NCBI GenBank assembly: GCA_034638255.1 | Contig: JAWPGT010000128.1 | Coordinates: 1-46,738, forward strand | Reading direction: 5' to 3' | DNA: 46,738 bases | Source of the DNA: Coprinus comatus | Taxonomy: Eukaryota; Basidiomycota; Agaricomycetes; Agaricales; Agaricaceae | In this document: positions 10,354-46,128 of the stretch, in pieces | How the letters are laid out: each line of letters opens with the position of its first letter | How positions within the stretch are numbered: position 1 is the stretch's first letter | Position numbers and translations under genes: made by a program | Notes under the pieces: generated by a model | What the model was told of the DNA's origin: nothing | The model's input: the letters and a program-made list of their open reading frames with translations, nothing else | The model's database searches: none

Positions 10354-11249
10354 GTAAGCGTTGGTAACAGTGAGTCGATATCCGATTATATGCTGATGTT
10401 TTCTGACATGCTGCATATTCGTCCTGTGATAAAAGTGAAGGACCATACCACGGGCACTTTATACCATATTTCTAATACGTCATGCATCCAACCTCCCTCC
10501 AGTCAAAGGGTGCTTCTAGGATCATTCCAGGGGTGTTGTTCGATGATGTGCCAACTCATTCCCCCAATATTCTCAACGGAGTCTGACAGGACAATAATGC
10601 AATCAAGTAAGTAACACCAAGTCTCAGTGACTCAAAGCCTCATGATTAATCTTCAGTGAATGTTTGAAGCCTGTAAAGGTCAATGTGATCGAGTTAGACG
10701 CCTGTGTATTAAACAGCGAAGTTCTCTATCTCTCATCAAGTTTCAGATACGATACACTGTACTGCCATTCTTCGTCCTCTTTTTCTATGATTATGATTAT
10801 TTAAATGTTGTATGTTGTGAATCAACTGTGCTTGTTAATGACTCAATGGTGCAGACCGTGTAGTTATAACTTATTCATCAACGGAAAGCTCTAGTCTTTC
10901 TTGCACTCGGAAAAGACTTTGGAGTATCAACAAACCTCATCCTGCTAGTGACAGTAGAAGTGATATAGAATGAAATAATACAACAATCTGGAATGTAGAT
11001 AGAGGGATAAAAACGCAAAAATCATACACAGGAAAGGTCTTAATGTAAAGCCAAAGCCAAAGCTCCCATCACCAAGACTGGAGCATTTTGGTACAGTTAT
11101 CCTGACTCCTGGAACTCCTTCACTAATTTTTACAAGTATACGAAAATCTGACATCATTATAGTGCCGATCTATCCTTGAGTGTAAAGGGATTCCCATAAT
11201 CAATCATGGCAAATTTTGGTACTTCAATGGCATTGGGGCAGGAGACTGA
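10354..11249. other. Intergenic region between host genes and the repeat-rich part
   Basis: No supported gene. A minus-strand frame starting with a true ATG at 11157 runs into low-complexity hydrophobic residues and is not convincing. This stretch marks the boundary between the gene-bearing left end and the mobile-element nest that starts at 11250. Confidence 0.4.
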
Positions 11250-11312
11250 TATAAATGGTAACAAATAGGTACCACTAGTTGTTATAAATGGATACCACTA
11301 GTTGTTTCAAAT
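11250..11312. repeat. Terminal motif, left element
   Basis: Reads as ATGGTAACAAATAGG followed by two copies of TACCACTAGTTGT separated by a short AT spacer (11270-11303), then a third degenerate copy. The same order occurs at 38980-39031 with only a few substitutions. Confidence 0.7.
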
Positions 11313-11469
11313 AGGTACATACGTATGTATCTTACTTGGCACATATGTCTGTACCACCCTTTGTACATATATATGTATCCATTATTATTATGATAGGCAA
11401 TAGGAATGAATTAATCTGAATTTTGTACACTTTTAGATTAGAGAAATTCGAAAAATTGAAAAAAAAAAT

Positions 11470-11866
11470 TAGGTGAAGTATAGTAGATTTGTACAGGAAA
11501 CTTGTACAGATGTACTACATTTCTCATAATTGTAGTAGATTCCTACAAGTTTCCTGAAGAAATTCACTACATTTCCAATAATTGTAGTACATTTGTACAA
11601 GTTACTTGTGCAAATGTACTACATTTCTCATAATTGTGGTAGATTCCTACAGGTTACTTGTACAAATGTACTACATTTCTCATGATTGTAGTAGATTCCT
11701 ACAGGTTACTTGTACAAATGTACTACAATTCTTGGAAATATAGTAGATTCCTACAAGTTACTTATACAAATGTACTACAATTATGAGAAATGTAGTAGAT
11801 TTGTACAAGTAACTTGTAGGAATCTGCTAAAGTTACCAGAACTATAGTACATTTGTACTCAAATTA
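11470..11866. repeat. Left arm: tandem ~52-bp units with internal palindromes
   Basis: The string ATGTACTACA recurs at 11614, 11666 and 11718, that is exactly every 52 bases. Each unit carries small palindromes around AAGTTACTT and GTACAAATGTAC, and the block GTAGTAGATTCCTAC. The arm is inverted relative to 14600-15113. Confidence 0.75.
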
Positions 11867-14599
11867 GCAATTTCCAATAGTCTAATAATATGATATATGC
11901 AAAATACAGAATGTACTATAGCACAATGAAAACTTGGCCAAATCCCATCAAACTACCTTCAAATGGAAGCGCTCAGGAATGCCGTTCCAGGTGTACAAAA
12001 GGCATCTAGTATGGTGCAGTATTAGCTGAGATATTGACTAATCACCCTTTACATCATCTGTAATTTGACTTATTTCACCACAATTGATTGCTAAAGCCAT
12101 ATTCCCTTTACACCATCATGGAGTACTCCTAAATGCTGTTTTGTACGTGAATAGAAGGTTAAATTCAGACCATTATAGCATGAGATATTCTATTTTTATG
12201 AGGTCCAGAGTATATGTTGCATAACACCATGAGTAATTATTGCCTCGGGACGCCCAATACAGCGCTGGAAAAAATCAGTTCTCATTCTTTCCCTTTACTT
12301 TGCCCTTACTCTGTCCCCTCTTTCTCTTTATGCTCAATCTCAAGTAGGAGGATGCCCTGTGTCAAGTTGTATTAATGCTATTGAGGGCCCCAATAGACAT
12401 TATGCACTTGTGTGGTACCTACTTGGCCTCTTTTATGAAGGTTTTGATAGATTCTGGCATCAGACCTTAGGTCTGGGAGATATTTTATTTCTCTTGTAAG
12501 TGTTTTCTTATCTAACTTGACGAAATTAACAATCTTTTGATAAGTTTTTTATTTTATTCTATTATTACATCAAGCTATTATAATTTGGTATGTTATTGAT
12601 TTATTTTGAACATTTCTGACGCATTTTTGACAGATTTTTATTTTATATTATTAGTTATAGTATCTTAGTTATCTTTTTATACTTACTTTCTCTTTTGTAA
12701 AGTAACTTGTGAAGTTAGTGGAGTGCACACCACTAGCTTTATAAGTTATTCTTTTTTCTTTTTCTTTTCTTTATTAACTTGTTTTAAGAAGTTTGTGCAG
12801 ACTTCTTATTTCAAGTTTTTTTTTTTTTTCTTTCTTTTTTTACTTGTATGTAGAATATGGCTATGACATATTATTTTTTGCTATTTCTTTGTCCTAACCC
12901 TAACCCTAAGAGCATAATCTTATTTCTACAAGTGTTTATTGATTGATTTCATTAATAATTACAACAACTCTATATATATTTGTTTGTTTTTATGAATATA
13001 ACAACTAATTAAATAACTCTTGATTGAGTGGGACTTGTACATTATTTTCGCTTTTTGTGACATCCCAGTGTGATGTCACACTTCAAAAAAGCGTCATATA
13101 TATCTTACTCATTTCTTATTCAAGTTACTTTATTTATTTTTTCATTAGACTTCATTGACTGTTACAATTATATACATATATAGTAAGACTTAAAAGACTA
13201 AGAAATAATAATAGAAATTACTCTACTTTATATATATTATATATGTATACTACTGTAATGTTAAGAACAGAGATTAGAGTATAAATCAATAATGTTGGGA
13301 TGAGGCTTTAGCTTTAACTTATATATCTTTCTAATACTATAGTTAGCCTTACTTACAAAAGGACTAAATAATAGAAGGATATTAGTAGAAGTTCCAAAAA
13401 AGTAGAGTAAGAACAAAGAGTAGAGGATTGACTTAGAATTGGAATAAGACTTTTAGTAATATAAATATCATAAGTTAGAAGACAATCTAATACTTGAAGT
13501 CAATAATTGTAAGGGCAACTTGAGGATCAGTAACTTAGTATAATGTCTAGCAAGGAAATCTGAAGTTATATTAAGTCAAAAATGTAATATAACTAATACA
13601 CCATATCTAGTGAGGAAATCCAAATCCCAAAGAGATAAGAATTAACCTACTGTGTTACAGTTTCATATTTATCATGACTAATCATTAGAACTAATGATGG
13701 ACAATAGTGTACTTTTTCTTACTTGTTTCACATAGCCTTGGACTAGTGTTTCTACGTGCTTCCACTTGTTGTTTCTCCTATCGTTTCAGCAGTAGATAGT
13801 TTCACCTTCCTGTCTTACATGTATCATGCACAGCCTACAACCTGTACTTGTAGTTGTATAAATACATGGACAGCAACAGAGATTAAGCTTCAGCTTAATA
13901 CTCTCTTGTTTCCCACTTCTACTTCTTATCATCATTCCGCCTCTACCTTGATAAGCCTAGAACTCAGAGTCAGCTCTAACTCCTGCATGAACAGCTTACT
14001 AGTAAGGAACACCTGTGATCTACAGTCTGAGTACTGTGGAGGTTGTCCCCTGAAAGTAGTCTTAGTAAGAGTAGACATTCTCCTCCTACAAGTACCTTGA
14101 AGAGGTCCATTGTAGCATCATCTATACTGAAACGGAGGTATAGGCAAGAACTATAACATACTGGGCATCTATACTAAGTACTGCTACTGAAAAAGGAAAG
14201 TTAGCCTTCATACTGATATCAGTAAATTAACTAACTTAGTCTTTAACAAAATTGAGATGGAATAAATAGATTGAAGAAATATTGTAAGGGAACTATTTTC
14301 TGATTCTATTTCCAACTGTTTTAATGATATTATTAACTTACTAAATACTAACATTCCTGACTTTGTTACCAATGCCAATTCTAACTTGTTAAAGTTCATA
14401 TTCAAATCACTCAACTCAATAATTAATCTAGATATCTTAATAAGGTACTTTACACCAAATATAACTATCATTTCTAGAAATTGATAGCAATATATATAAG
14501 TGTATTTATTGACTATAAAAAATGATATAAAAAATAATAAGTTAGAGTTTTTTTATAACTGATTTATGAGATAATTGCTAATGAATATATTTAGTAATA
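11867..14599. other. Non-coding AT-rich centre of the left element
   Basis: No coding exon is supported. Visible features: pyrimidine-rich tracts at 12749-12840; three telomere-type CCCTAA units at 12893-12909; a strong hairpin at 13050-13094 (GTGACATC and GATGTCAC arms around CCAGT); and a TATA-like box at 13857 followed by a small hairpin (TTAAGCTTCAGCTTAA, 13885-13900) that resembles a retrotransposon leader. The plus-strand frame at 13756-14100 has no family resemblance and is probably chance. Confidence 0.45.
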
Positions 14600-15113
14600 T
14601 CTAGTATACTATAGTTGTAAAAATCTACTATGTTTATAGAAGTTATAGTATATTTGTACTCTAACTTTTTAGAGAAATATAGTATAGTTTTTGCAAATAT
14701 AGTAAAAATCTACTATATTTCCAATAATTTTAGTAGATTTGTACAAGTTACTTATACCAATGTACTACATTTCTTATAATTATAGTAGATTCCTACAAGT
14801 TGTCTAAAGAAATCTACTACATTTCTCATAATTGTGATAAATTTGTATAAGTAACTTGTAGGAATCTACTATATTTCCAAGAATTGTAGTACATTTGTAC
14901 AAGTTACTTGTACAAATCTACTACATTTCTCATAATTGTAGTACATTTGTACAAGTAGCCTGTAGGAATCTACTACAATCATGAGAAATGTAGTACATTT
15001 GTACAAGTAACCTGTAGGAATCTACCACAATTATGAGAAATGTAGTACATTTGCACAAGTAACTTGTACAAATCTACCACAATTATGAGAAATGTAGTAA
15101 ATTTGTACAGAAT
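14600..15113. repeat. Right arm: tandem ~52-bp units, inverted copy of the left arm
   Basis: The string GAGAAATGTAGTA recurs at 14983, 15035 and 15087, again with an exact 52-base period. Bases 14959-15067 are the exact reverse complement of 11597-11705. Toward the centre (14600-14750) the units decay. Confidence 0.75.
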
Positions 15114-15117
15114 AGTA

Positions 15118-15343
15118 TAAATACTTGATGTATTAGACGATTAAAGCCTTAAGCTTTAATCTCTTCTGTTGTATCCCTTATACATCTCTGTCTCCATACC
15201 TCTCGGTCACTAGGTTGAAAGGCCTTGAGATTGCAGCAGAGTGTTTATTGAACGCACGTTCCTACACGACTGCACTCTAGCATTTAAGTTCCAGGAGTGT
15301 TCAGCTTAACGGTTCATGGTCATAACAGGAAGCTCCACCAGAC
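15118..15343 (+). promoter_or_regulatory. Possible leader of the DIRS-like relic
   Basis: A TATAAATAC box at about 15118 is followed about 30 bases later by a hairpin (TAAAGCCTTAAGCTTTA) and pyrimidine-rich sequence, then by the RT frame at 15344. The same box-plus-hairpin design appears at 13857-13900. A promoter or leader role is inference. Confidence 0.3.
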
Positions 15344-16453
15344 ATGCAGGCAGCAACAATGGATGTAGATGCAGCCTTTCGTTGCTACCCAATTAGAGCA
15401 GACCAACAACATAATTTTATTGTGGGATGGAAGGAAAAATTCTATATCAATCATTGTGCTCCCTTTGGAGCTTGCAGTTCCGGAGGTGTTTTTGGCCGAC
15501 TAGCAGATACAATGGCTGCCATCATGCGCCTTAAAACAGGGTCACCAATTGAGAATTGGGTTGATGATTTTGTTTTCTTTCGACTTATACACATAAATTC
15601 ACACAACAGCACAAAATTCTACACATACAATATAAATAACATTGAAGACATTGCAAGGCCACTAGGCTGGCCATGGAAACCTTCTAAAACCAAACCCTTC
15701 TCAGAAATTTTTTGCTACCTTGGGTTCATTTGGGATTTAAAAAGAAAAACAGTTGGACTACCATTGGACAAACATGAGAAATACTGATTACAATGTATGG
15801 AATGGTCCCCTCCAGATTCGAAATTCAATCAAAAACAAGCTGAAATCCTCCTCGGCTCCCTAGTACATTGTTCACTTGCTATTCCAGAAGGCCAATCTTG
15901 GTTACCCACCTTGTCAAGATTCGTGAGTTCCTTTAGGAATAAATCACACTTCACCAAAAGAACCCCAAATGCAACAGTTCACTCCAATATACAATGGTGG
16001 GCAACATGATTATCTGAAGAAAATTGTTCCTCTCATATATACAAACCACCATCTCCTTCTAACATCAATTTTTGGGTTGATGCTTTGACTTCATGGGGCA
16101 TTAGAGTGGTATTTAATAAAGAATAAGATTCTTGGAAGCTCAAATCAGGCTGGAATCACCATCCTGAACATACAATCGGTTGGGCAGAAATCATAGTGAT
16201 TGAATGTGGTTTATGGTTAGCTATTCTTAGAGGATATACAAACATACACTTTGTACTAAAATCCGACAACATTGGAGTCATAGATGCCTTGAAAAATGGA
16301 AAGTCAAGAAGTTCGGAACAAAATAAAGTCCTACAAGACATTACCACAATCTTACAAGTCAATTCAATCTGGATGACTTCAGAATATGTTCCTTCCAAAC
16401 AGAATTTAGCAGATGACCCATCTAGGGGTATTCCCCCAAGAGGCTTCACATGA
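15344..16453 (+). pseudogene. Decayed reverse transcriptase-RNase H of a DIRS-like (tyrosine-recombinase) retroelement
   Basis: One reading frame runs through the whole interval but is broken by stops at 15785-15787, 16007-16009 and near 16124. The RT part has motif A (MDVDAAFRCYPI), a glycine-rich FGACSSGGVFGRLAD block and the catalytic WVDDFVFF, followed by CYLGFIWDLKRKTVGLP. The RNase H part has NFWVDALTSWGIRVVF, IECGLWLAI and KSDNIGVIDAL, and ends with a YVPSKQNLADDPSRGI block. This combination is what I know from basidiomycete DIRS-like elements, which retrotranspose through a circular intermediate using a tyrosine recombinase. No gag region and no recognisable recombinase domain is present, so it is a fragment. 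Confidence 0.72.
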
Positions 16454-21408: not shown

Positions 21409-24400
21409 TCAACGATTATTGGCTACATATATTTGAGCTTCACCCCAGCTCTTTTGTACCTGCTTTGTAAGTCGTGCATAGACTGCCGCCTGCCTGTATG
21501 CATATGCTGTTGATCCCTTGTTGCCCGAAGCAGCACTTTGAATAGCCATATCCAACCAAATGTGATTCCACTTCGAAAAAGCTCGCTCCGTCCTCTTGAA
21601 TTCCTCTTCCAGTATCTCCACTTCTTCTTTTAGTCGTTGTAGCCCTGCACGAGCACGGAACCATCGCACCCGATCCACTAAATAGAATAGTATAAATTTT
21701 ATTTTCTTCAATGTTCGAAAATGATAAGAAAATAAGAAAATGCTCACATTCTACCTGCCATGTTACATCTGAGACACCATTTGGCTTTCCCACCACCCAG
21801 AACCATGGCTCTCGCTTGCTAGAATCACCCATTTGCGCCAACCCATACATATCCTTACCCCATAGCTCTGTTTTCAACAAAGGACGAAGTTCGGAAGTTT
21901 CCGGAAGACCCAAGACAATGAGTGCACGATATGCCATCCGATAGCTCTCAGCACACATTACCTTGTCCTTCTCAATGGACTGCAAAATTGTATTTGCACG
22001 GGTGTTCTGACGCCCTCCAATGACATGATCCTTTTTGTGTTTTTGGTTCATGTTGTATAAATGTATGGATGCACGTAGATCGTCGATTGTATCATAGGCT
22101 TGTCCAAGTCGGATTTGGTATTCAACATTGGCAAGAGTTGTAATTTGAGGTTGCTGTTGGCTTCCAGAAACCGAAGAGAGTAGATAAGAGGGAAGGCTGA
22201 TTGGAAGTAGTTCTGCAGGTGTATTTGCACTCGAGGGCAACAACTTCATATCTGGACATGTTGCCTGCAAATCGGCTCCCCATTGAGTTAGTCTGTTTTG
22301 AAGGTTTGATCTCTCAGCATGCAACTTCTCGGTCTCAAGGGACCCTGCCCCAACCTGACGACGAAGTTTGTACCTGAAGACACCTATAAGTCGACTATAC
22401 TACAACACAAGTATAAAGGAATACATACTGGTCTAACTCGATCCTTAAAGCTTCATCTACAAGTTTGACGAGTTTTGGGTATGTGTCACGCTGGGTGTCC
22501 TGTGCCGCTATCTCAAGAAGGTGTGTCGATTGAGAAATTTGAGATGGAACTATAAAAATCAAATCAGGGGTAATTTAATAACGATCTTGATTTGAACTTA
22601 CCTTTTGCAAAATGAGCTTCATAGACGCTCCAAACCTTTCCCTGTTCATCAACAGGAGGGTTCAATTCCATTTCTTTCCAAGAATTTAGCAAGTATTCTG
22701 AGAATCGTTTCTCTAATGCATTAAACACCTCCGCTGAGTCGACCAGACGTATTGAATACTTTTTGAGCTGCGCTTTCAGGGAAGTTGATGCTATACAAAA
22801 TTAGATCAATTCGTTCGATTTATTACTTTAAAAGTACATACCCATTTGAGTAAGTTTGAGCCATCCCCAATGTATATTGTAGTCGTCAAGGGAATCATGG
22901 CGATGGCCAGCATTCTGCTCCTTTGTGCTTCCTGCTGCATGGTTTTGCTCTGACCATGCACTTTCAATACCTTCCCCGCACGTCATACCAGAGAATTTCT
23001 TATAGAAAAAAGAGTGCTCTAGCTGACACTGTCTCCCATGACCATGGATGTGCATCTTCGGGATTGCACCATTGACACATTGAAATATAGAATCCATTTT
23101 AGGGAATGAAAGATGCATACGCTTTGTTAGATTGATGCTATACTGGCACCAAATATCATAACTCAGCATTATTCCCCTGAGATCCCCTGCTTCGTCTAAG
23201 GCACTGGCTAATGCGTAATCGGTCCTATCATAACTTATCATTTGAAGAAATATTGTGTAAGTCTGAAGTCATGATAACATGTAAACAGTGAACACATACC
23301 TTTCTCCTTTTACCAGATCTACCATTCCACCAGCCCAGTAGAAGCCATGACGTGTACACTGTACAGCCACAACACCACTCACAGAGGTTCCTTTAAACTT
23401 GATCATTTCTTGTTGTCGAACAGCCTTTAACTTGGCACACATTGAAGCCTGGTAATTAATAGGTTACTGATAAATAATGATTGAGTTTTTATAATACATA
23501 CTTCAGATTTATTCTCACTTCTGAGCGAATCCAAATATAACTTGAATTTTTTGTCGTTAACAAAATAGGCATTCCCATCATTCAGGGAAATGTCATCAGG
23601 ATCACCAGGTTTATTTTTACGTGTGAGTCGAAAATTCCCATCAATTGCAAGAAATAATAAATATTTGTGTCTGTTAGAAGGTTGAAGGATGTTAAAATAG
23701 TCAATAGAACAGCATTAAGACAATTCACTTACTTTTCAGACTCTGAAGCATTCCAAACAGTTTCCTTATCTACATTGAAGCCAATCTCAGGACAAGCAGG
23801 ACATCGAAGAGCAAGAGAACCAGGACGGCGATTGGGAACATGTTCATCAATACCGTGGGATTGACCTGAGCGTCGTAAGGTAGTGAGATATCTCCACACA
23901 CGCATGACAATCAGAAGTTCACGATAGCGATCCTGATATAAAATTAGCAAGTGATAAGCTGACATGGAGAAGTAGTACTTACATCAACTTCACTTGGGAT
24001 CACAGCATCAGTGTATTCTTGTAGCGCTCGGAAATAATCAAACCCTGATATCTTTGAACATTTACTATGAATATGAAAGCTTTTAAGAAGTTGAAAAGTA
24101 AAAATTGTTGAAGGGTCCTTCATTGAGCCCGGGAAAAATTGTGCCTTCATCAATTGTGCGACTGGATCTAGCTGACTACAACCACAAAACTGTACTTTGT
24201 GATGGTGAATCCCATTGATGTGAACGAAAACAATATTCTTCGTATTTGGTGAAGGACAAGGTTGGTGCTCTGGGCTACAGAGATATAATACAAATCCTAG
24301 ATCTTGTAAGGATGTATTAGCGAAGTGGGTATCACGCCAAACTTGGATTCGGTGGAGAGGATGTTGGTGGTGGTTTTCGAGAATACAGTTTTGACAGATT

Positions 24401-24884
24401 GACTTGAGTTCTGGATTATGACAGTCAAGGCAACGGTATGAGCTCTTGTATTCTTTCAGGCATTGAGTACAGTGTGTTTGCATGACAGATTGATTATGCT
24501 CGAGTCCCATGATATATTCTTGGAGCTCAGAAATGCGCTCCATAAATGGTTTGAGCTTGGTAGAAGCACCCTATGTTATGACCACTGTAGTAAGTATATG
24601 AAATGTACTATAAATTTTTGATGACATACCTGGTAGCGACTTTTTGTGGTGTTACCCATCACTTCTTCAACATCATCGTCAGCAGTTCCAGTGATAGTAG
24701 AAAGACTGGTAGTAGGTGGAGGAGAAGTAGTACAAGAAGACTTTGTAGCAGTCTGGGGAACGTAGAGCATCGTTGAAGTAACTTTTGTTTTTTTCTTTTG
24801 GTGAAACAGAACTCGTATATCTTCAGTACCATCAACAATGTCTTCTTCCAAGTCATAGACACGTTTTTTCCGGCGAGGAGGCAT
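21409..24884 (-). CDS. KDZ-family transposase with CxC2-type cysteine cluster
   Basis: ATG 24884 starts MPPRRKKRVYDLEED and the stop is at 21409-21411; about nine introns, with no internal stop in any exon. The N-terminal zinc region reads THCTQCLKEY, YRCLDCHNPEL and SICQNCILENHHQHPLHRIQ, the CX2C cluster known in front of KDZ transposases. The RNase H-fold catalytic core is visible. The first Asp is in FLAIDGNFRL (about 23640). GVVAVQCTRHGFYWAGGMVD follows. The second Asp is in IMLSYDIWCQY (about 23150), the HIHGHGRQCQ block follows, and the Glu is in GEGIESAWSEQNHAAGSTKE (about 22960). The C-terminal half is helical, with a coiled-coil-like LQRLKEEVEILEEEFKRTER. KDZ (Kyakuja-Dileera-Zisupton) enzymes move large DNA transposons. 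All three acidic residues are present, so the enzyme may be active. Confidence 0.9.
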
Positions 24885-36040: not shown

Positions 36041-38970
36041 CTATGTTGAGGACATATTATTTGAGCGCTTGGCAGCGCTATATGTGGGATTGGAAACCTC
36101 TAACCCGTAATAGTTATCACGGAAGTATTCAAACTTCACACGTCCGAGATTCTTCGTGAGAAGATCTGCAGGGTTCTCAGTGCCTGGGATAAAATAGAGC
36201 TGAACCTTCTTTTCATCAATTACTTGACGAATGAAGTGAAAAATGATGTCTATGTGTTTTGATCTCTTTTCGACGGCAGGATTTTGCGCGATAAAGAGAG
36301 AGCCCATATTGTCTCCACAAATATCCATTGGTTCATTGTTATGTAAACCAAGTTCAGTCATTAGGCTTCTGATCCAGATGGACTGACGACTACAATCGGA
36401 AATAGCCATGTACTCAGCCTCTGTGGACGATAACGCAATAGTCTTCTGTGATCAACTAACCCAGGCTACCGGGCATGATGCAACAGTGGACAGATAACCA
36501 GTTTGGGATCTTCGAGTAGAAGGATCACTAGCCCAATCAGAATCACTGTAAGCGATGAAGCCCTCATTATCAGAACCATCAAGCGTCATTCGGTATTCCC
36601 GAGTCGCTAATAGGTATCTACAAATGTAGAGAGCTCTCCGTAAATGTTCTTCCGTAGGGTTATGAGAATGTTGACTAAGCTTAGTCACAGCGAACGAAAT
36701 GTCCGGACGCGTGCCAATAGCAATGTACAACAATGATCCGATCACCTGTTGGTACCTAGAACGGATGGAGGAGTTGATCGGCTTGTCGTTAGGAACTGGA
36801 TAGTACCCTTCTGGCAGCGGAGTTCGCGCCGGTTTGGTGTCACGGTCAGAGCCAGTGACTTTAAACCTTTCCAGGATCTTTTCTAAATAAGCACATTGAT
36901 CAAGATAGATCTTTTGATTAGCTCGATCTCTCCTGATGCGCATACCGAGAAATTCTTTGACTTCTCCAAGGTTGCGGCATTCCCACTTTTTCATGAACTC
37001 TCCTTTAAGCTTTTTAAGCAGGGCGGAGTCATTTCCCATGAAAAGTATGTCGTCAATGTACATGACAGCAATGACAAACTTGCCATCTTTTTGACGATAA
37101 ATATATATACCAGCATCAGATTCACATCGCTTGAAGCCTAGTTTGTCCATGGAAGATGCCATCTCCTTCCACCAGGCCAAGCCGGCTTGTTTAAGGCCGT
37201 ACAATGCACGTCGTAACCTCCACACCATATGTTCCTTGCCCTTAAGTTTGAAACCTTCGGGTTGATCCATATAGATTTCCTCATCCAGTTTGCCATAGAG
37301 ATATGCTGTCTTTACATCGACAGACTCAATGTCCCAGTCTTCAAGGGTGGCTAACCCGAGCAGGATTCGAGCGGACTCATATCGTACTACTGGAGAAAAT
37401 AGTTCATCAAAGTCAATGCCCTCGACTTGAGAAAATCCTTTAGCAACTAGTCTAGCACGTTTGCGACCGTCACTCTTTTCATTAAAGACCCATCTATTTT
37501 TTACAGTTTTCCTTCCTTCCGGAAGTTTTACCAACTCGTAAACTTCTCGCTTTTTAAGCGCTGCTAGTTCTTTGAGACAGGCTTCGTGCCAGTGTTTACG
37601 TTCCTCCGGATTCAATTTTACAAGATCACGGAATTGCTCAGGAACTGTAGTTGAACTCGCTTTTGCCAATAAAAAGTTCATCAATTCTAACCCCCCTTCC
37701 TTAGTTATCTGTTGAATCTTGCAATCTGCATCTTCTTCCATTGCGTCAGGGTTTTGTTCCCTCGCATATCCCCGTGAAGCATCCTCATGTTGTCTGTGTA
37801 TTTCATCGCGACGTTCTCAGACTTCCTCGGGTGAAATTGGACGTGGATCTGCTTTGGGGCGATCTCGTTGATTGCGGATTCTAAAATCGTGTCCACGGAG
37901 ACGAACTCTCCCCTGGGGTGGAAGAGGTTCATTGTGATTGTAATCTCGTAGGATTTCTGACGGATGTGTTCTCTCCCCATAAACGTTACCTTCTCTAAAC
38001 GGAACAAACTTTTCTTGGCCAGAACGGCGAGGTAAAGGTTCAACTGGTCTAGGAGGTCATTCAGGTGATGGAGAAATGGGACGGGTGGAGTCAGATCGAG
38101 GAGCAGGGCTCGGACTCGGGTGACGAGTAGGTGATTCTGGATCAGCGTATGATAACGTGTCATCATCATCTTCAGTGACTTCCTCAACTGTTGTTTTCCT
38201 AGGAGCGGGTTTGCTCGGACTGGGAACAGGAGGTTTTTGAGAAGTAGATGGTACGGGAATCGGACCTTGCGGTCTAGGCGGTAACGGTGTTCTATCACTG
38301 TCATCTTGTCGAGATGTGTCCATAGGATCATCAGGATAAAGATCAGGTGTAGTATCCTCGTCATCTTCATCAGACGCCGGAGGAGAAGGATTTATTTTGG
38401 GGTTTTTAGAAGAACCGGAGTCCTTACGTTTTTCGTGATCTGGCTTGCATTTGGGATACCAGCCCTCGTCGAAAATAGCTGTTTTTGCAGTATAAATAAC
38501 ATTTCCTTTTTGATGTCGCATAAACGTGAAGTTAGCGCCATTATAACCAAGGAAGATCATTAATTCAGATCTGGGAGATAATTTGTCATCCCTTGATTCC
38601 TTTGGAATGAAAATGTAGGCTGCACAGCCAAACACGTGAAGCTCAGATAAATCTGGCTTTTTCCCTGTTACCATTTCCATGGGAGTTTTCCATTCAAGAT
38701 GTTTGATGGGAGTTCGATTATAACAATGAACTGCCGTGTTAAGGGCAAATTCCCACCAAGAATCTGGTAAGCATGCAGTAAGTCACATGGCTTGCGCCTT
38801 TTCCTGAAGTGTGCGGTTCAGTCTTTCTGCTCTACCGTTCTGCTGGTGTATATGTGGTGCAGACGTCTCGTGTACTATCCCTTTTGAGTGAAGGAATTCC
38901 TCAAATTGTTTAGAGACATATTCACCACCATTGTCTGTCCGGATCCGCTTAATCGTTTTGGGGCAACAGA
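36041..38970 (-). pseudogene. Copia B pol (integrase to RNase H), decayed and 5'-truncated
   Basis: Read on the minus strand, the frame starts inside the integrase (KRIRTDNGGEYVSKQFEEFL, then HQQNGRAERLNRTLQ). It continues through TPMEMVTGKKPDLSELHVFG, a long Pro/Asp-rich linker, the RT (RWVFNEKSDGRKRARLVAKG; DVKTAYLYGKLDEEIYMDQP; LYGLKQAGLAWW; catalytic MYIDDILFMG) and RNase H (IAYSDSDWASDPSTRRSQTG; KTIALSSTEAEYMAIS; HIDIIFHFIRQ), and ends at 36041-36043. It is interrupted by four in-frame stops, at 38783-38785, 38057-38059, 37817-37819 and 36452-36454, all TGA. No frameshift is needed between them. The integrase is cut near 38970 by the next element, so gag, protease and the 5' LTR are missing. 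Confidence 0.9.
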
Positions 38971-38975
38971 TCAAT

Positions 38976-39031
38976 TTATATGGTAACAAATGGGTACCAC
39001 TAGTTGTAAAAAATGGGTACCACTAGTTGTA
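38976..39031. repeat. Terminal motif, TET/JBP element
   Basis: ATGGTAACAAATGGG followed by two copies of TACCACTAGTTGT; nearly the same string and spacing as at 11251-11303. Confidence 0.72.
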
Positions 39032-39060
39032 ATTTTTGGATACAGCGGGCTGTATCCAGC

Positions 39061-39500
39061 TATATTGTAGAATCCTACTACATGCACTATAGTGTTGTAG
39101 AATTCTACTATACTTACTATACTGTAGTAGAATCATACTACTCATACTATAGGATTGAATAATTCTACTACACTCACTGTACTATAGTAGAATTCTACTA
39201 CTCACACTGTACTGTAGTAGAATTCTACTACTCACACTGTACTGTAGTAGAATCCTACTACTCGCACTGTACTGTAGTAGAATTCTACTATACTCACTGT
39301 ACTATTGTAGAATTCTACTACTTATACTATAGGATTGAATAATTCTACTACTCACACTGTACTGTAGTAGAATCCTACTACTCACACTGTACTGTAGTAG
39401 AATTCTACTACCCACACTGTACTGTAGTAGAATCCTACTACTCGCACTGTACTGTTGTAGAATTCTGCTACCTATACTCCAGTGTTGAAGAATTCCCATA
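39061..39500. repeat. Array of fourteen-plus 30-bp palindromic units
   Basis: The phase is exactly 30 bases over at least 420 bases. The consensus core is the perfect 18-bp palindrome GTAGTAGAATTCTACTAC, followed by a spacer of the CTCACACTGTACT type. Variants are mostly single substitutions in the palindrome centre (ATTC/ATCC) and in the spacer (CACACT versus CGCACT). A minus-strand reading frame (39302-39499) simply translates the repeat and is not a gene. Confidence 0.93.
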
Positions 39501-39591
39501 ATGATAGATAGTTCTTAATACTAAAATTATGGTTGTTCAAATCCAAGGTCGCACTGCACACATGATATATATTTAACCCAATACCTATCTA

Positions 39592-41549
39592 CTACTTCTT
39601 GATAGGTATATCTACTCCCCAGGTTTCCTTGTACTGCTTCCTAATCCGCTCTACTGTACGAACTGCTATAAATTGTTCATGTTCATCACTATCCCTCTCT
39701 AGTAAACCAGTGAACAGATTCCTCCAATTGAAGCCCAACTTCTTCATGTTTTGGATAAAGAATAAAATATTTCGAGGGGTTAAGGGAATGGGTCCAAAAC
39801 CTTCCTTGATAAGCGTTCCATCTATAATAGAAGAAACACTCCACTTTTTCCAAAGTAGAGCTCCTGCAATTGCAGTCTCAGGAGCGCATCCACAAGTAAG
39901 AAATCCCTGAACCTGAATTTTCGTCTCCTTCTTTCCAACACCTGCCTTTGGATAGGGAACTCCATGAATTGCAACACCTGCAATAGTTTGATCACCATCT
40001 ACATGAGATGTACTCTTATCCTTCATAAAATGGTGAACGCAATGAACATTACCAAGATCATTGGTGAGCATCTCCACAGTAAGAGCGAAAGTGGTACAAT
40101 AGGCCTCAGGCAAATAGCTGAAGCTATCTCTAACACGCTTCTTGACTTCAGCAGGAATCGGTGGTTTCTTCCCCTTGGTAGTTAGCCAAGCATGGAGTAT
40201 GGCGAGATCAGATTCTATACAATAGATTAGAGACATTCTAAAGCTAAGAGATATATGTGAACATACCATGGAATTCATCGAAATTTGGCTCAACAAATTC
40301 TTCATCCTTATTTAGCCTTCTTTTTTTCCGTCCTTTTCCTTTTTCTTTTCCTATATTATATATTAGAGTTAGATTGGAAATAAAAGAAAAACTAAACTTA
40401 CCAGTGACATTTGCGTGAGATCTCTTTTCACCTGTTGATACTTCTGGAAGTTTTACCTTAGTAAACATTTATGAAATATATTTGGAAACTTACCAATTAT
40501 ATTCTCATTATCACTCTCAACATCTACCCATTGAAGTGTAGCGCGTTTCTCCTTTCCCTTCTCCTTTCTTGTAGTTAAAGCTTTAATCAATGGAGTATCT
40601 GTATCATCATCTGATAGATCTGAGATATGCGTGTCATCAGCTGATATATCCAAAATACGTTCAACATTGTTAGTTGTAGCTAAAAACAAATGTTAGCAAA
40701 GTTTCAGAGCATAACACAGTAGTACTTACTACTTGTAGGAATAGTAAGATCAGAAGGAATGGAAGGAACAGATGACAGTTCTTTGTCCTCAGTCAATAAA
40801 GAGATGGGTAAAGAAGATCCAACGCTCATAGGAGCAGGAGCAGTACTTTGAATACTCTCTGTAATAGGCGTAGCTCCAGTACTTAGAGGGATGGAGGTTG
40901 TTTGAGTTTCGTTTGAAGTAGAAGAAGATATTGTAGTGACAGGCGTTGAAGTAGAAGTAGCATTCCTCAAGGTATTGGTGGAAATAATGGGAATAGATGA
41001 TGAAGAGGGTAAGTTGATAGAAGGTTGAACTTCAATGACGGTTTCTTTGGCTATGACTTTAGCTTAATGTTCTAAAACTAGAAATTTAAAAAAAAATATG
41101 CGTACCATCAGTCTTTACATGAGAGTCATCATCATCATCATCATCATCTTCACTTAAGTCAGAGGTAAGTGGTTCAAGATCCATATCTATTATTAAGGTT
41201 AAATAGGTTTGAAAATAAAATAAAAGTAGCGTACAAGTGTTAGAAACTCCAACATTTGCTTTCTTGAGCTTGGTGATTTGCGTTCTTATAGACTTTAACT
41301 TGTTCTTCATAGCTGTGATATGTTGTTTCTTGGATTTCACAGTTTCTGAAATGAAAACATTATCTGAGTATGAAATGAGAGGTAAGGGAATAGGAGTAAA
41401 CATACGTGGATTTTTCTTCCCTTTCTTCTTTGAGAACGTTTCAAATTGTTTAACCAAGGCTTTGATAGCAAGGTCGGTGGAACTCTCAGACTGACCAGAG
41501 AGTCAAGGTCTAAGGTTGAAACTTGGATTTCAAGAACAGATGAAGACAT
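39592..41549 (-). CDS. Unrecognised multi-exon gene beside the TET/JBP gene
   Basis: Proposed start ATG 41549 (MSSSVLEIQVSTLDLDSL); stop at 39592-39594; about eight exons. The N-terminal part is charged and helical (LVKQFETFSKKKGKKNP; KNKLKSIRTQITKLKKANVG), followed by an acidic run (DLSEDDDDDDDDSH), a long Ser/Thr-rich linker and a basic KEKGKGRKKRRLNKDEEFVE patch. The C-terminal domain looks folded: DLAILHAWLTTKGKKPPIPA, SYLPEAYCTTFALTVEML, VHCVHHFMKDKSTSHVDGD, AGVAIHGVPYPKAGV, LTCGCAPETAIAGALLW. It ends RIRKQYKETWGVDIPIKK. The His/Cys-rich VHCVHHF and LTCGCAP blocks could bind metal. I do not recognise the family. Between codons 18 and 25 the frame that continues is offset by one base from the ATG frame. 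Either the real start or first intron differs, or there is a small frameshift. Confidence 0.55.
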
Positions 41550-41889
41550 TGGAAGAAAGGAGAGTAGGAGAAAAGAGGAATGCGATATTAGAAAGCTACT
41601 ACAGGATGGTCCATTTTTAAGTAAAGGGAAGTACAATAGACTAACCATATGGGGAAAGATCTTATGAGATGAAAAGCATAAGTAATTATGTGATAAGTCA
41701 GTCAATTGTATTATACACGGGCATCAGAACAGAAGTCATCAAGTTATAACATTAAATTCATAATAATTATATAATAAAAATGCGCACAAAGTAAGTAGGA
41801 TAGTTAGATAAAAATGTAATATCTACTTAGAAGTTATTTTGGTATAAAAGTAGCTCAAACTAGCTAAAGAAAATTATAAGAGAATGTCG

Positions 41890-43236
41890 TTAACTATCTA
41901 GAAGTATGTTATTAATATTAGCCCATCCTGGATAACTAATATTTAATCTATCAAACTGAACCTTCTTAACAAAAGAAGCATAGCAAATACGATCACCTCG
42001 ATCCCAAGATCCAACTGAATGTGTTAACAAGTTACCACAAAACTGGACTACAGTTCCAGGAGGATAGTCAAAAGTAGCACCTAACTCAGGAAAATTGATA
42101 GTTACTTTGGAATAAGTACCAACCGAAACTACCTGATCAAACCAAGCATAACACCCATTCCGATCTGTATGAGGTCTTGAAGTACGATTTGAAATAACTG
42201 AAACTCCAGTAAATGCAGAAGTCCACTGAGAAGCCCAAAACTTGGTATGGTCAATATTTCGTAACTCTTGCAAGAAGTTGTAACCAGCTTGATACAAGTC
42301 AGGATGAATGAAACGAAAAATATCATTGAGGCTCTTGAAGACTTCAGTTGTGAACAATAACCAAGGTTTCGTGTGAAGTTTTCGGGTACTCAAAGATCTT
42401 GAGGTTTTGACTGAGATATCAAAGCAATACTAGACTTAACATTAGAAAGAGTTATTGAATGGAAATAATAAACTTACTCCATGACCTTGAGGGAACCATC
42501 CAGGACTGAGAGTTAATGCACCTCGGGACATAACAGACCCCTGTTGTTGCAAGAAATACTTTCCATCAACCCGCCAAAGATGACTGTTGCTCTTGAGGGA
42601 AGAATTGAAGGCTGATTTACTTCCATCCAAGATTTTCGTAGCAGTAACAAGATCATCCTAAAGTGGAAATAAAATTAACAATAAGAAATTAATGTAAAAA
42701 TCAAACATACTTGGTATTTTTCAGTCAAGACTGAAGGCAGATATACAATGAGAATATGACCTTTGGAATCAACAACAAGGGTAGGAGTCTTGATGTATCC
42801 AAGATTACAAGCTGAGAGAATTGTCGAGATCTTCTTTGGTTGAACAAGTTTCGTAATGTCAATACCAAGTACAACTTAAATGAAATAAAAAGATTAAGTT
42901 GAGTGAACATAAAGTTGATGAAAAACTTACTCTGATTTCGGATAGCTGCTGCAAGTGCATGAACAGAATTTCGGTACTGTTCCTTGGGTGATTGGTATTG
43001 CGTGAGTATTCGTGATGTACCACTTAGTGGTACAAAGCTAGGACTAATATTTCATTAGTAGATAAAAGATTTAGTTTTATATGAAACACATACCAATCTG
43101 GATTACATTGAAGATATTGTAACCTTGTATGAACAGCTTGAGAGAATTTCGAAGTAGAAGAAGAATGTTCCACAGGTATGATTTGCTTGACTTTATTCCT
43201 CCCTCGAGAACGTTTACGATTTCGATGAGAGCCCAT
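41890..43236 (-). CDS. TET/JBP-family 2-oxoglutarate/Fe(II) dioxygenase (candidate 5-methylcytosine oxidase)
   Basis: ATG 43236 (MGSHRNRKRSRGRNKVKQII, a nuclear-localisation-like start), about five exons, stop 41890-41892, roughly 375 residues, no internal stop. The middle has LVVDSKGHILIVYLPSVL, WRVDGKYFLQQQG and SRGALTLSPGWFPQGHG. The last exon holds the double-stranded beta-helix core: metal-binding HxD in SRPHTDRNGCYAWF, then FPELGATFDYPPGTVVQFCG, the distal His in LLTHSVGSWD, and the 2-oxoglutarate-binding Arg in RGDRICYASFVKKV. These features match basidiomycete TET/JBP proteins, which oxidise 5-methylcytosine in DNA and are known to be expanded together with KDZ transposons. A TATAA box lies about 45 bases upstream of the ATG. 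All metal and cofactor residues are present, so activity is plausible. Its DNA substrate and link to the neighbouring repeat array are inference. Confidence 0.85.
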
Positions 43237-43330
43237 GAGAGGGTTGAATTGGGATTGAAGGATTCTTCAACCCAGGTCTTATAAAATGGCCTGTGACGTG
43301 GCAAGGTGGAGGACAAATATTATATTGAAG

Positions 43331-44580
43331 ATTTCATAAACAATAAACATCTTAACTAATAACATTAGTACAATGATCAAACAATGGGAGGGTTACAAAC
43401 TCACATAATTTACACCAACTCCACATTTCGTCATACATGACCTACATAACTTATAACATGGTCAGTATCTTACACTTTCATGAAGTTATGAACTTACACA
43501 TGGAGTGATGTGGTTTGATGACAGCCAGGAAGACACCTTCAGTCGAAAATCTTTCAAAGGAACTAATACATTATATAATGTCAATAAATGTGTAACAAGC
43601 AGGTAAATAGATACATACCAGGCATGATTGATGACTGAGCATCATTGAGAATAATAATAATAAAATATTTGAACAATCATTAGAAAATAACGAGACAAAT
43701 TCAAGTAGTGGAACATACCAGTTGCATAACAAAGGCCTTACTTGAATAAGAATAGAGGGAGCATCAGGGTTTGTTGATGTGAATACAGGGGCAAGAGTTT
43801 TGGATTGCGTCAAGGGCAGGAAGAGAAACACTGAGGGGGGACATATAGAGCAGGTTGAAGAGACAAAAACCAACGTTGAGGCCAGCAAGGTCAGCATTGA
43901 GGAGATTCGTGAGGTCATCAAGCATATCGAAGCTGAAAGAGCACGTCAAGGTGAGTGTGGGGGGGGAGGGAAGGAAAACAGAGCATGGGGCAGATACCTG
44001 ACCTTGAGGATGTAGCAGATAGAAGTGTCGAGGTGTTGAGGATGTAGCAGATAGTAGAGTTGAGGTGTCAAGGGTGTAGCAGACAGCAGGTTGGCAGGCT
44101 GGAGAGAGAGAGAGAGAGGGAACCAAGAAGAACGTGAACGCAGGTGCATCTTAAGTACCTGCCAGCAGGTGACGTGTCAGTATGTGTCAGTACGTTAGGC
44201 AGATGATGTGTGTCAGATGATGTGTCAGTACGTTAGGCAGATGACGAAAACACGGAGACCGCTCAAACCCATTGGGGTGCAGGGTATTGGCGGTCACTTG
44301 AAGACCCTGCCTAGACCACGGAGATTGTCCGGATGAGAAGGGGATTCCAATCCATATACATACACACAAAAAGAGAAACATAAGTAAGCTAATCATCACA
44401 GTTTAATAATACTCACTGTAAATCTTCATGGTTATTCTTTAAAGGACGAGAGAGGTACAAGGATTAGGAGGGGAAATGGGGGGGAAAACAAGGTGAGAAG
44501 CACCATGCATGATTGATGGCGTCGTGGTAACAGCCTTCCAGGGTCACAGTGCTATTTTGTAATGGCTCAGCAGTCAGATC
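43331..44580. other. Unassigned region with short tandem repeats
   Basis: No gene is supported. A plus-strand frame (43779-44015) lacks an ATG and a recognised motif. 44001-44095 contains three imperfect copies of a unit of about 33 bases (TTGAGGATGTAGCAGATAG...), followed by a GA run. 44178-44245 contains two copies of GTCAGTACGTTAGGCAGATGA. The minus strand of 44255-44345 has weak tRNA-like A and B boxes. The right end of the TET/JBP element may lie here. Confidence 0.4.
44001..44120. repeat. Imperfect minisatellite and GA microsatellite
   Basis: Three tandem copies of a unit of about 33 bases containing GATGTAGCAGATAG, followed by (GA)n at about 44100-44118. Confidence 0.7.
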
Positions 44581-46128
44581 ATGATCAAGAAATGCCTGAG
44601 TAAATCCGTCATTTTTAGCTGGAAAGCGTGGCTTCTCCTCGATGGCTTAGGAGAAAAGTGGGACCCCAGATGGATCAATAGACGTGAAGAGAGGAATGAA
44701 CACCACAAGAGAAGTGCAAAACGCCTGCAAGAAATTGATAGAGACCTTAGCATTATTCCGAAAATGAAGGAAACAAACAAGCTAAGCCACACCTTCTATG
44801 TCTTTGTCCAATGCACACCACAGGATGAAGTGGTGAAACCCAACTCCCTAAACTTGCCTGAGAATCATATCCCTGACGAAGGAGCGCAACCCGCCCTGCA
44901 TAAAGCATGGGTAGATTGTGTAACCACCATTGGTGCACCAGGAGACCCAGACGTACTGGGTCTGCCAACAATACCCCAGCGACTGCCTGAACCGTGCGAG
45001 TCAGACTCCAGAGTATGACTGTGAAAATCCCCCCTGACATGCTTCAGAGCAAGGAGAATGCGAAGTTGGCAGTGATGCTACAGATAATAGAGCGAACACC
45101 AGGCCATGTGGACCTGGTCATACAAAATGTACCTAAACCAATTATTGAGTACTTGACAACAAGGATAGAGCAGTACTCGAACTAGGATTGGACGTACCAT
45201 GAAGGGGCAACTCTGCTACGAGCCCTCACCAAACGCCTGCAGGAGCGAGTAGGTGCAACAGCACTCGAGAAACCCCGAAACACCCGCATACAGGGCTACA
45301 GCTGCTGCCAATAACCGCCCAATAGAGATATGTGTGCAAACCACACGCAAAGGCATGCGTCTGCCTGGGGTCTCCCAAGCTCTACTGTATCGGAAAATGA
45401 GAGAATTGAAACGACCGGAGAAAAGGCGAGATACCATGATGAACCTGGATATTGCAAGACATGCCGCCAGACAGGACCCGACCGAGGATGAACCATTGCC
45501 CACTGAAAGCCAAATGTGGTGCTCGCTAAGGGACATAGACCTGTCGAGAAGTGTCAGATCGGTATTATGGAAAGCCATGCATGGAACCCTAAGAATTGGG
45601 TCGTACTGGGAATGCATACCAGGATATGAAATAAGAGGACAATGTGGAATGTGTGACGTGTCCGAAACCCTGGAACATATACTGACAGAGTGCCGTGGTA
45701 ATGGACAAGAAGAAGTTTGGAAGCTTGTAAACACAGCTGCCGCCAACAAGAATATTGAGCGTGTCCCAGAAACACTAGGCAGTGTGCTAGCATGCAGCAT
45801 GTATAAGGTCAAGAACCAAAACGGCAAGACGGCGGTGGGAAAAACAAGGTTCCATAAGACAATAATAGCTGAGTCGGCCCTGGTTATATGGAAACTACGC
45901 AACGAGAAATCCGTCGCAATGGAGGAGTAAATGAGACACCTACCAAGGCAGAGGTGAAGCGAAGATAGGAATCTGCCATGAACCAGCACATCTCACAGGT
46001 ATTTATGGTAAAAGATATCCACGTCCAGGACATTCTCTTCGATCGCTGGTAGCTGGCCCCTAACTTGTGGTAGGGACCGGATACAGTGAAAGCGCACACA
46101 AAAAAAGAAAAAGAAAAAAGAAAGAAAG
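44581..46128 (+). mobile_element. 5'-truncated LINE (Tad-like non-LTR retrotransposon), 3' end
   Basis: Only the C-terminal part of ORF2 is present. 45000-45250 resembles a decayed RNase H domain (PPDMLQSKENAKLAVMLQII ... TLLRALTKRLQERVGATALE), broken by stops at 45016-45018 and 45183-45185. The frame 45253-45930 reads PGVSQALLYRKMRELKRPEK, MWCSLRDIDLSRSVRSVLWK, MHGTLRIGSYWECIPGYEIR and the zinc knuckle CGMCDVSETLEHILTEC, the characteristic tail of fungal LINEs. A 3' UTR of about 170 bases follows, ending in an A-rich tail (46098-46128). The start given is where a related frame begins; the true 5' truncation point is uncertain. Confidence 0.72.

Follow-up and report, generated by a model that had tools for sequence, protein, structure and literature searches.

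A TET/JBP-bearing KDZ-type transposon family with a partner gene and palindromic subterminal arrays in Coprinus comatus

Results

Genes and features of the element in the window

The window is a whole contig of 46,738 bp from the mushroom Coprinus comatus (GenBank assembly GCA_034638255.1, contig JAWPGT010000128.1), and its last part, from position 38960 onward, contains an array of palindromic repeats, a TET/JBP dioxygenase gene and a partner gene. The stretch from 38960 onward very probably is the leftmost ~7.8 kb of a large DNA transposon of the KDZ type, whose basic size is about 19-20 kb. Copies were sought by BLAST across the contigs of the same genome (35.7 Mb, 134 contigs), which are denoted here by C and a number, the window being C128. 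The array, the partner gene and the TET/JBP gene co-occur on many contigs, more than expected by chance, and belong to a TET-bearing KDZ-type transposon family of the CxC4 lineage that is recently mobile. The anatomy of the element and its assignment to KDZ are held with high confidence. A first-pass annotation of the window had proposed a mobile element in which the array and the two genes belong together, and their joint recurrence bears this out. Related families exist within this one genome: A and B are TET-bearing, and C has the partner without TET.

The left edge of the element is 38960 (GGGGCA...), 16 bp outside the position 38976 given previously; homology to C43, C10, C33 and C108 begins at 38959/38960. 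The left terminus, 5'-GGGGCAACAG..., comprises the outermost ~22 bp (38960-38981, plus strand), lies outside the inverted repeat, and follows unrelated flanks in other family-A copies. The target duplication should have one of its halves in the 8 bp preceding this terminus (38952-38959), with the counterpart beyond the contig. The left-end pattern was found at 37 places in the fetched loci, 34 of them beginning with GGGG, and the flanks of these matches all differ, except at two duplicated sites. The terminal inverted repeat (TIR) starts at 38982-39066 (plus strand), as defined by comparing the left end of the C33 copy with its reverse-complemented right end, and a tandem 23-bp motif is located within this start (38983-39032). 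Rightward, identity to C43, C10 and C33 is 98.3-98.8% up to the window end, and likewise to C73 until that contig stops. Position 43330, which had been taken as the right edge, is therefore no edge, and the element overruns the contig end at 46738.

The subterminal array (39067-39471) consists of 13.5 units of 30 bp with 81% match in tandem-repeat analysis, in agreement with the 30-bp palindromic array already described, and its consensus contains an 18-bp perfect palindrome (GTAGTAGAATTCTACTAC). The palindrome resides in the core of the unit; the self-complementarity of the whole array (0.56) was not above the best of 300 unit permutations (mean 0.45, maximum 0.62). The unit is 30 bp in family A, 30 bp but diverged in C40, 31 bp in family B, and 52 bp in both family C and the D-type elements, and by eye the units are mostly built around a TAGTAGAATYCTACTA-like core. 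The ratio of observed to expected CpG is 0.17 in the window array, 0.14-0.16 in the C33 arrays and 0 in two D arrays, compared with 0.43 and 0.52 in the two genes and 0.29 in the C33 transposase region.

The TET/JBP gene (41890-43236, minus strand) was modeled by hand from GT-AG sites as five exons (43236-43094, 43043-42931, 42874-42711, 42657-42478, and 42429-41890) encoding 379 aa. It matches PF12851 with an E-value of 6.7e-17 and 61.6 bits (cut-off 34.9), and the frame is open and retains HTD, the distal His and the Arg, so that the earlier identification of a TET/JBP dioxygenase with catalytic residues holds. The closest solved relative is CcTET of Coprinopsis cinerea (PDB 7vpn, 7w5p, also 8jkk; E 5.9e-12). 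With the last exon as the query, the alignment covers ~130 residues, in which HxD, Gly331, Asp337 and the distal His region align, and the equivalents of CcTET H326, D328, G331, and D337 are conserved (HTDRNGCYAWFD in the window, HRDTSGPIEGMD in CcTET). These CcTET residues are tied to the oxidation of 5-methylcytosine and N6-methyladenine in the main text of PMC12730594. The window protein thus carries the features of an AG-type TET/JBP, namely HxD, the distal His and the equivalents of Gly331 and Asp337. A PE-type assignment (HxE) was rejected, as the motif is HTD in the window, HID in C108 and C40, and HFD in the family B copies.

The partner gene (39592-41549, minus strand) is separated from the TET/JBP gene by 340 bp in the window, and gene modeling and copy comparison gave eight exons (41549-41406, 41345-41235, 41186-41106, 41056-40730, 40679-40494, 40443-40402, 40350-40267, and 40214-39592). 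The previous description of two intact same-strand genes is right about the shared minus strand and the open TET/JBP frame, but the window partner has a one-base difference in exon 1 that puts it out of frame with its counterparts in C33, C10, and C43. The C10 partner is open (532 aa), the C33 partner is truncated in the last exon, and the splice sites used for C10 did not work in the C43 copy. By eye, the protein contains a basic segment, acidic and Ser/Thr-rich stretches, a basic patch, and a conserved C-terminal domain with invariant Cys and His residues (C62, H64, H65, H74, H87, C111, and C113 in domain-alignment numbering), and it is apparently a nuclear protein. No relative of the partner was found in Pfam or the PDB. 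Five relatives of the domain were present in a set of 5.8 billion proteins, each annotated at most as "hypothetical protein", and two AlphaFold models of the domain were unreliable, with mean predicted local distance difference test scores of 54.1 and 56.8.

Complete copies, ends and target duplications

Two copies are complete at both ends. The C33 copy (185381-218667, 33,287 bp, contig pieces joined by coordinates) has a perfect 8-bp duplication, reading GAGAGTAG directly followed by GGGGCAAC at the left and CTACGTG directly followed by GAGAGTAG at the right. It contains a nested Gypsy retrotransposon, with long terminal repeats (LTRs) at element positions 15204-15720 and 23004-23520 and a 5-bp flank repeat (CTCCT), and a 4.6-kb D-type element nested inside the transposase gene with its own 8-bp duplication (TCCTAAAT); without these two insertions, C33 measures 20,356 bp. 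The C108 copy extends from a left end at 17527 to a right end at 36611, with AACATGGT as a perfect 8-bp repeat on both flanks, and about 10.4 kb of its 19,085 bp was left unread. In both, the partner and TET/JBP genes are oriented leftward, and near the right end there is a CxC4/KDZ-type transposase oriented rightward.

The left end of C33 aligns with the reverse-complemented right end from about element base 23 and through the array, and the outer ~22 bp are unlike between the ends (GGGGCAACAG... at the left, CACGTAGCGG... at the right). Read inward, the right terminus in the complete copies is CACGTAGC... and the left is GGGGCA.... Matches to the array motif (at most one mismatch to GTAGAATTCTAC) number 33 at the left and 24 at the right of C33, and 11 at the left end in the window.

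Further 8-bp duplications were recognized by eye at C97/C5 (AAGTCTCC, one duplicated site) and C3 (ACCTGCTG), both short elements that carry one left-type and one right-type end, and the flanks of C19 agree at only 7 of 8 bp. In contrast, short elements with two GGGGCA ends (C24 and C89) had no matching 8-bp flanks. This suggests that a normal insertion requires both end types. A pattern search of 1.4-1.6-kb pieces recognized no right end for the elements on C6, C24 and C13. The left end at 273385 and the right end at 256262 of C27 were considered as one element and rejected, because their flanks do not match.

Transposase and assignment to KDZ

A 353-aa open reading frame (ORF) near the right end of C33 matches CxC4 (PF18717, E 4.3e-42). 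A 203-aa frame on the far side of the nested D element resembles the KDZ core at a score under the Pfam cut-off (PF18758, E 2.9e-5, 24.3 bits), and a SWIM-like CxCx8CxH string is located upstream. PF18717 gave 22 rows in the genome, and searches with the two C33 transposase pieces gave 28 (KDZ) and 30 (CxC4) rows. The rows on C3, C98, C102, C108, and C127 adjoin family-A right ends or arrays, with best-row identities of 90-97% for CxC4 and 72-98% for KDZ. Where the contig extends at least 40 kb to the right, as it does for nine TET loci, a CxC4/KDZ match occurs within 25 kb at six (C33, C108, C6, C24, C65, and C27:270k). Among 69 relatives of CxC4, the minority with a named organism come from mushrooms, e.g., Agaricus bisporus, Mycena, and Galerina. 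The CxC4/KDZ-type transposase and the 8-bp duplications of the complete copies therefore make it very probable that the element is KDZ-type.

A common-type KDZ transposase is also present in the window at 22867-23657 (PF18758, 135.5 bits, with an internal stop), together with CxC2 at 23944-24570, and no Tet_JBP row was found near this pair on the contig. Judged by these domains, this transposon ~14 kb to the left of the element belongs, like the usual KDZ of this genome, to a different lineage from the CxC4/KDZ-type. The first-pass annotation set the element apart from this nearby KDZ transposon; the two differ in lineage (CxC4 versus CxC2), but the element is very probably itself KDZ-type.

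Distribution of the gene pair

The 22 TET rows were grouped by us into 18 loci and the 33 partner rows into 26. The partner was found on the same strand within 3 kb at 17 of the 18 TET loci, the exception being C83:254-796. A chance neighborhood of the two genes, which the first-pass annotation had allowed for, does not fit these counts. A recognized left end lies beside the partner at 16 of the 17 loci that have both genes, and at the remaining one (C42) the contig stops there. On the other hand, nine of the 26 partner loci have no TET nearby, including five family-C loci with left ends, and the partner is therefore the more constant part of the pair. With the Tet_JBP profile alone, all 13 rows over the cut-off belong to the element family, as do 20 of the 21 rows overall. 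The sole row outside the family (C63:48569-48940, 20.8 bits) is under the cut-off and may be another TET-like gene.

Selection and CpG decay

The ratio of nonsynonymous to synonymous substitution rates (dN/dS, NG86 method, stop codons left out) between the window and C108 was 0.14 for TET and 0.33 for the partner. Relative to C40, the values were 0.18 and 0.11, respectively, with saturated dS; dS exceeded 1 against both C40 and family B, where YN00 gave no value. Between C33 and C108, the ratio was 0.17 for CxC4 and 0.30 for the KDZ piece. These ratios indicate purifying selection on TET, the partner and the two transposase pieces.

Five near-identical copies showed 39 singleton substitutions, of which 33 were C>T and 24 of them at CpG, against a background of 298 CpG among 2879 cytosines (Fisher p 1.6e-17 for the CpG excess). 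Columns with fewer than four copies or more than one odd copy were left out of this count, and C33 was aligned untrimmed at the common seed. The natural reading of the substitutions is CpG methylation of the element followed by deamination. No CpG signal was detected in a pair of D elements (3 of 69 differences), which have few CpG.

Discussion

Comparison with known elements

The association of TET genes with KDZ transposons was reportedly first made by Iyer and colleagues in 2014. TET-bearing Kyakuja, Zisupton and other transposons have since been described, with an escape from silencing proposed for them (Kojima 2025, PMC12730594). According to the main text of that paper, transposon-borne TET genes occur in several fungal groups, their function is not experimentally validated, and target duplications measure 8 bp in Zisupton and Dileera and 7 bp in Kyakuja. 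The present element resembles the TET-bearing KDZ transposons of Agaricomycetes described there in combining a KDZ-type transposase with a TET/JBP gene that has AG-type residues, and it shares the 8-bp duplication with Zisupton. An 8-bp duplication, seen in C33 and C108, is a KDZ-type trait, but alone does not decide for the Zisupton lineage. TET-bearing Kyakuja elements are described in the same text as having 7-bp duplications, 5'-CA..TG-3' termini and no TIRs, whereas the present element has duplications of 8 bp, the termini GGGGCA.../CACGTAGC..., TIRs that begin ~22 bp further in and contain palindromic arrays, a CxC4 transposase and the partner. An identity with published Kyakuja is thus ruled out by the termini (GGGGCA...CTACGTG), the duplications and the TIR. 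TET-bearing IS3EU (TAYGG..CCRTA termini, 6-bp duplication) was likewise rejected, since the end is GGGGCA, with TATGG lying ~20 bp inside, and the duplications are 8 bp. The words CxC, subterminal, and tandem repeat are absent from the main text of PMC12730594. TET-bearing KDZ transposons as such are already published, and, measured against the main-text description in PMC12730594, the partner family, the offset termini, the CpG-poor, family-specific arrays and the anatomy as a whole look new.

KDZ1-KDZ3 of Cryptococcus (PMC12810828) also have a KDZ core and a cysteine cluster, with TIRs of 139-241 bp and a length of 9-11 kb, and their duplications are 8 bp in KDZ1, as here, and 4-8 bp in KDZ2 and KDZ3. 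They differ from the present element in having CxC1 and not CxC4 and in being about half its size, and the passages of that paper describing them mention no TET. VANDAL elements of Arabidopsis encode the anti-silencing factor VANC, which acts on tandem repeats that differ between related elements (PMC5735166). This plant system, for which the abstract of that paper mentions no TET enzyme, serves here as a working model only, and the proposed likeness is one of analogy. In the open-licence literature searched around KDZ, TET and VANC, no paper on a protein such as the partner was found.

Possible mechanism and points against it

The transposase would bind the array-bearing ends and move the element by cut and paste. 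TET would oxidize 5-methylcytosine, and perhaps N6-methyladenine, on element DNA, and the oxidation would allow the genes and ends of the element to escape methylation-based silencing. The first-pass annotation had likewise suggested that the element may erase its own methylation. The partner would act together with the ends, helping transposition or guiding TET to element copies. A function of TET as an anti-silencing enzyme is slightly favored, and an action of the partner at the ends has about an even chance. Furthermore, the partner might recognize the palindromic arrays of its own family and bring the element-borne TET there, and the transposon would thereby remove methylation from its own copies; this proposal is drawn by analogy and appears rather improbable. 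If it were true, the array unit and the partner would co-evolve between families (30, 31, and 52 bp), and the system would resemble the VANC/VANDAL arms race, with the addition that the element supplies the enzyme.

Several observations weigh against the main reading, a KDZ-type transposon with an anti-silencing TET. Four of the five near-identical TET copies are broken, the window being the open one: stops interrupt C10 and C33, the His of HxD is changed to Tyr in C10, and C43 and C73 carry small indels. The TET domain thus contains a stop in both complete copies, C33 and the more distant C108, and in none of the copies examined were the three genes all open. Since the open genes are not the same ones from copy to copy, the gene products probably act in trans. 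No TET was detectable in the fetched pieces of family C (C1, C13, and C126), which has the partner; TET is therefore not needed by every member. All seven differences between the LTRs of the Gypsy nested in C33 are CpG transitions. Methylation therefore appears to be general, and the CpG record indicates that TET does not fully protect its own element. With respect to the transposase, the KDZ core match falls below its cut-off of 26.6 bits, in a gene that a nested element interrupts, and the CxC4 loci are not among the rows of a genome scan with PF18758. Three of the nine TET loci with sufficient contig (C40, C95, and C42) have no CxC4/KDZ match, and the right half of the window copy is unseen, as the contig ends before the transposase part.

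Alternative explanations

The array could be an independent satellite that stands beside the genes by chance, as its tandem structure and the different array lengths of the copies would allow. This is extremely improbable, since C33 has arrays within its inverted repeats at either end and family-specific units occur near the ends of families A, B, C, and D; the first-pass annotation had named an unrelated satellite as the outcome that would undo its proposal. It had itself preferred a separate, possibly non-autonomous TET-carrying family, distinct from KDZ and with no visible transposase. The absence is real in the window, where it reflects the contig end at 46738, and the C40, C95 and C42 contigs have no CxC4/KDZ match. 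It does not hold as a family trait, given that the complete C33 and C108 copies hold a CxC4/KDZ-type transposase between ends with perfect duplications. A family without a transposase is accordingly very unlikely, and separation from KDZ has been abandoned.

The partner may be an accessory transposition protein that binds the arrays and has nothing to do with demethylation, TET being an independent later addition. TnpA of En/Spm is an accessory protein of this type. The partner without TET at nine loci, five of them family-C loci with left ends, is consistent with such a role, as is its position adjoining the end and array wherever a left end is present. TET, in contrast, is almost always accompanied by the partner on the same strand, at only a short distance in the window; this explanation falls just short of an even chance. 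TET may also be kept for something other than unsilencing its own element, such as undirected oxidation of transposon methylation, N6-methyladenine oxidation or a host-level role. The main text of PMC12730594 summarizes findings of oxidized methylcytosine over retrotransposons too in Coprinopsis and Laccaria and suggests non-targeted action; the residues tied to N6-methyladenine activity are conserved here, and CpG decay affects both the element and the nested Gypsy. The near-confinement of Tet_JBP rows to the element family points instead to element fitness, and this alternative is considered rather unlikely.

For the question of how transposon-borne TETs reach their targets, this genome offers complete copies with exact ends, family-specific arrays and a mutational record resembling that of CpG methylation. 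TET-bearing families (A and B) and a TET-less partner family (C) in one genome provide a natural comparison, and a single fungus would allow tests of whether an element TET acts on its own copies and whether the partner supplies the address.

Neighboring and nested features

The element interior from 43237 to the contig end at 46738, which is shared with C43, C10, C33, and C73, contains what resembles the remnant of a non-LTR retrotransposon (ORFs at 44563-45018 and 45253-45930; zf-RVT 20.1 bits, under the cut-off of 27.5) that was also found in C33. ORFs resembling a hAT transposase (L063 4120-5362) lie inside the element in a stretch common to C33, C43, and C10. They were labeled by eye, with a best Pfam match of 14.8 bits (under the cut-off), and are likely an old passenger. 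Contigs C10 and C43 stop at an identical element base (about 196690 of C33), probably an assembly break inside the repeat.

A D-type relative is present in the window at 11235-15110, with a GGGGCAGGAG... end and, close to either end, palindromic arrays of 52-bp units, and neither a TET nor a partner row was found there. Over 3885 aligned bases it shares 98.2% identity with the D element that interrupts the C33 transposase gene, and the homology ceases at ~15110, before the right terminus. An RVT_1-like ORF (15326-15787; 22.3 bits, under the cut-off) is situated near the D-type array.

The insertion host of the TET-bearing element is a Copia retrotransposon (36041-38959, minus strand) with RVT_2 (E 1.6e-70) and an integrase. 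The minus-strand integrase frame to the left of the junction, which has one internal stop, is cut at the junction, as expected from the original proposal of an insertion into a Copia integrase.

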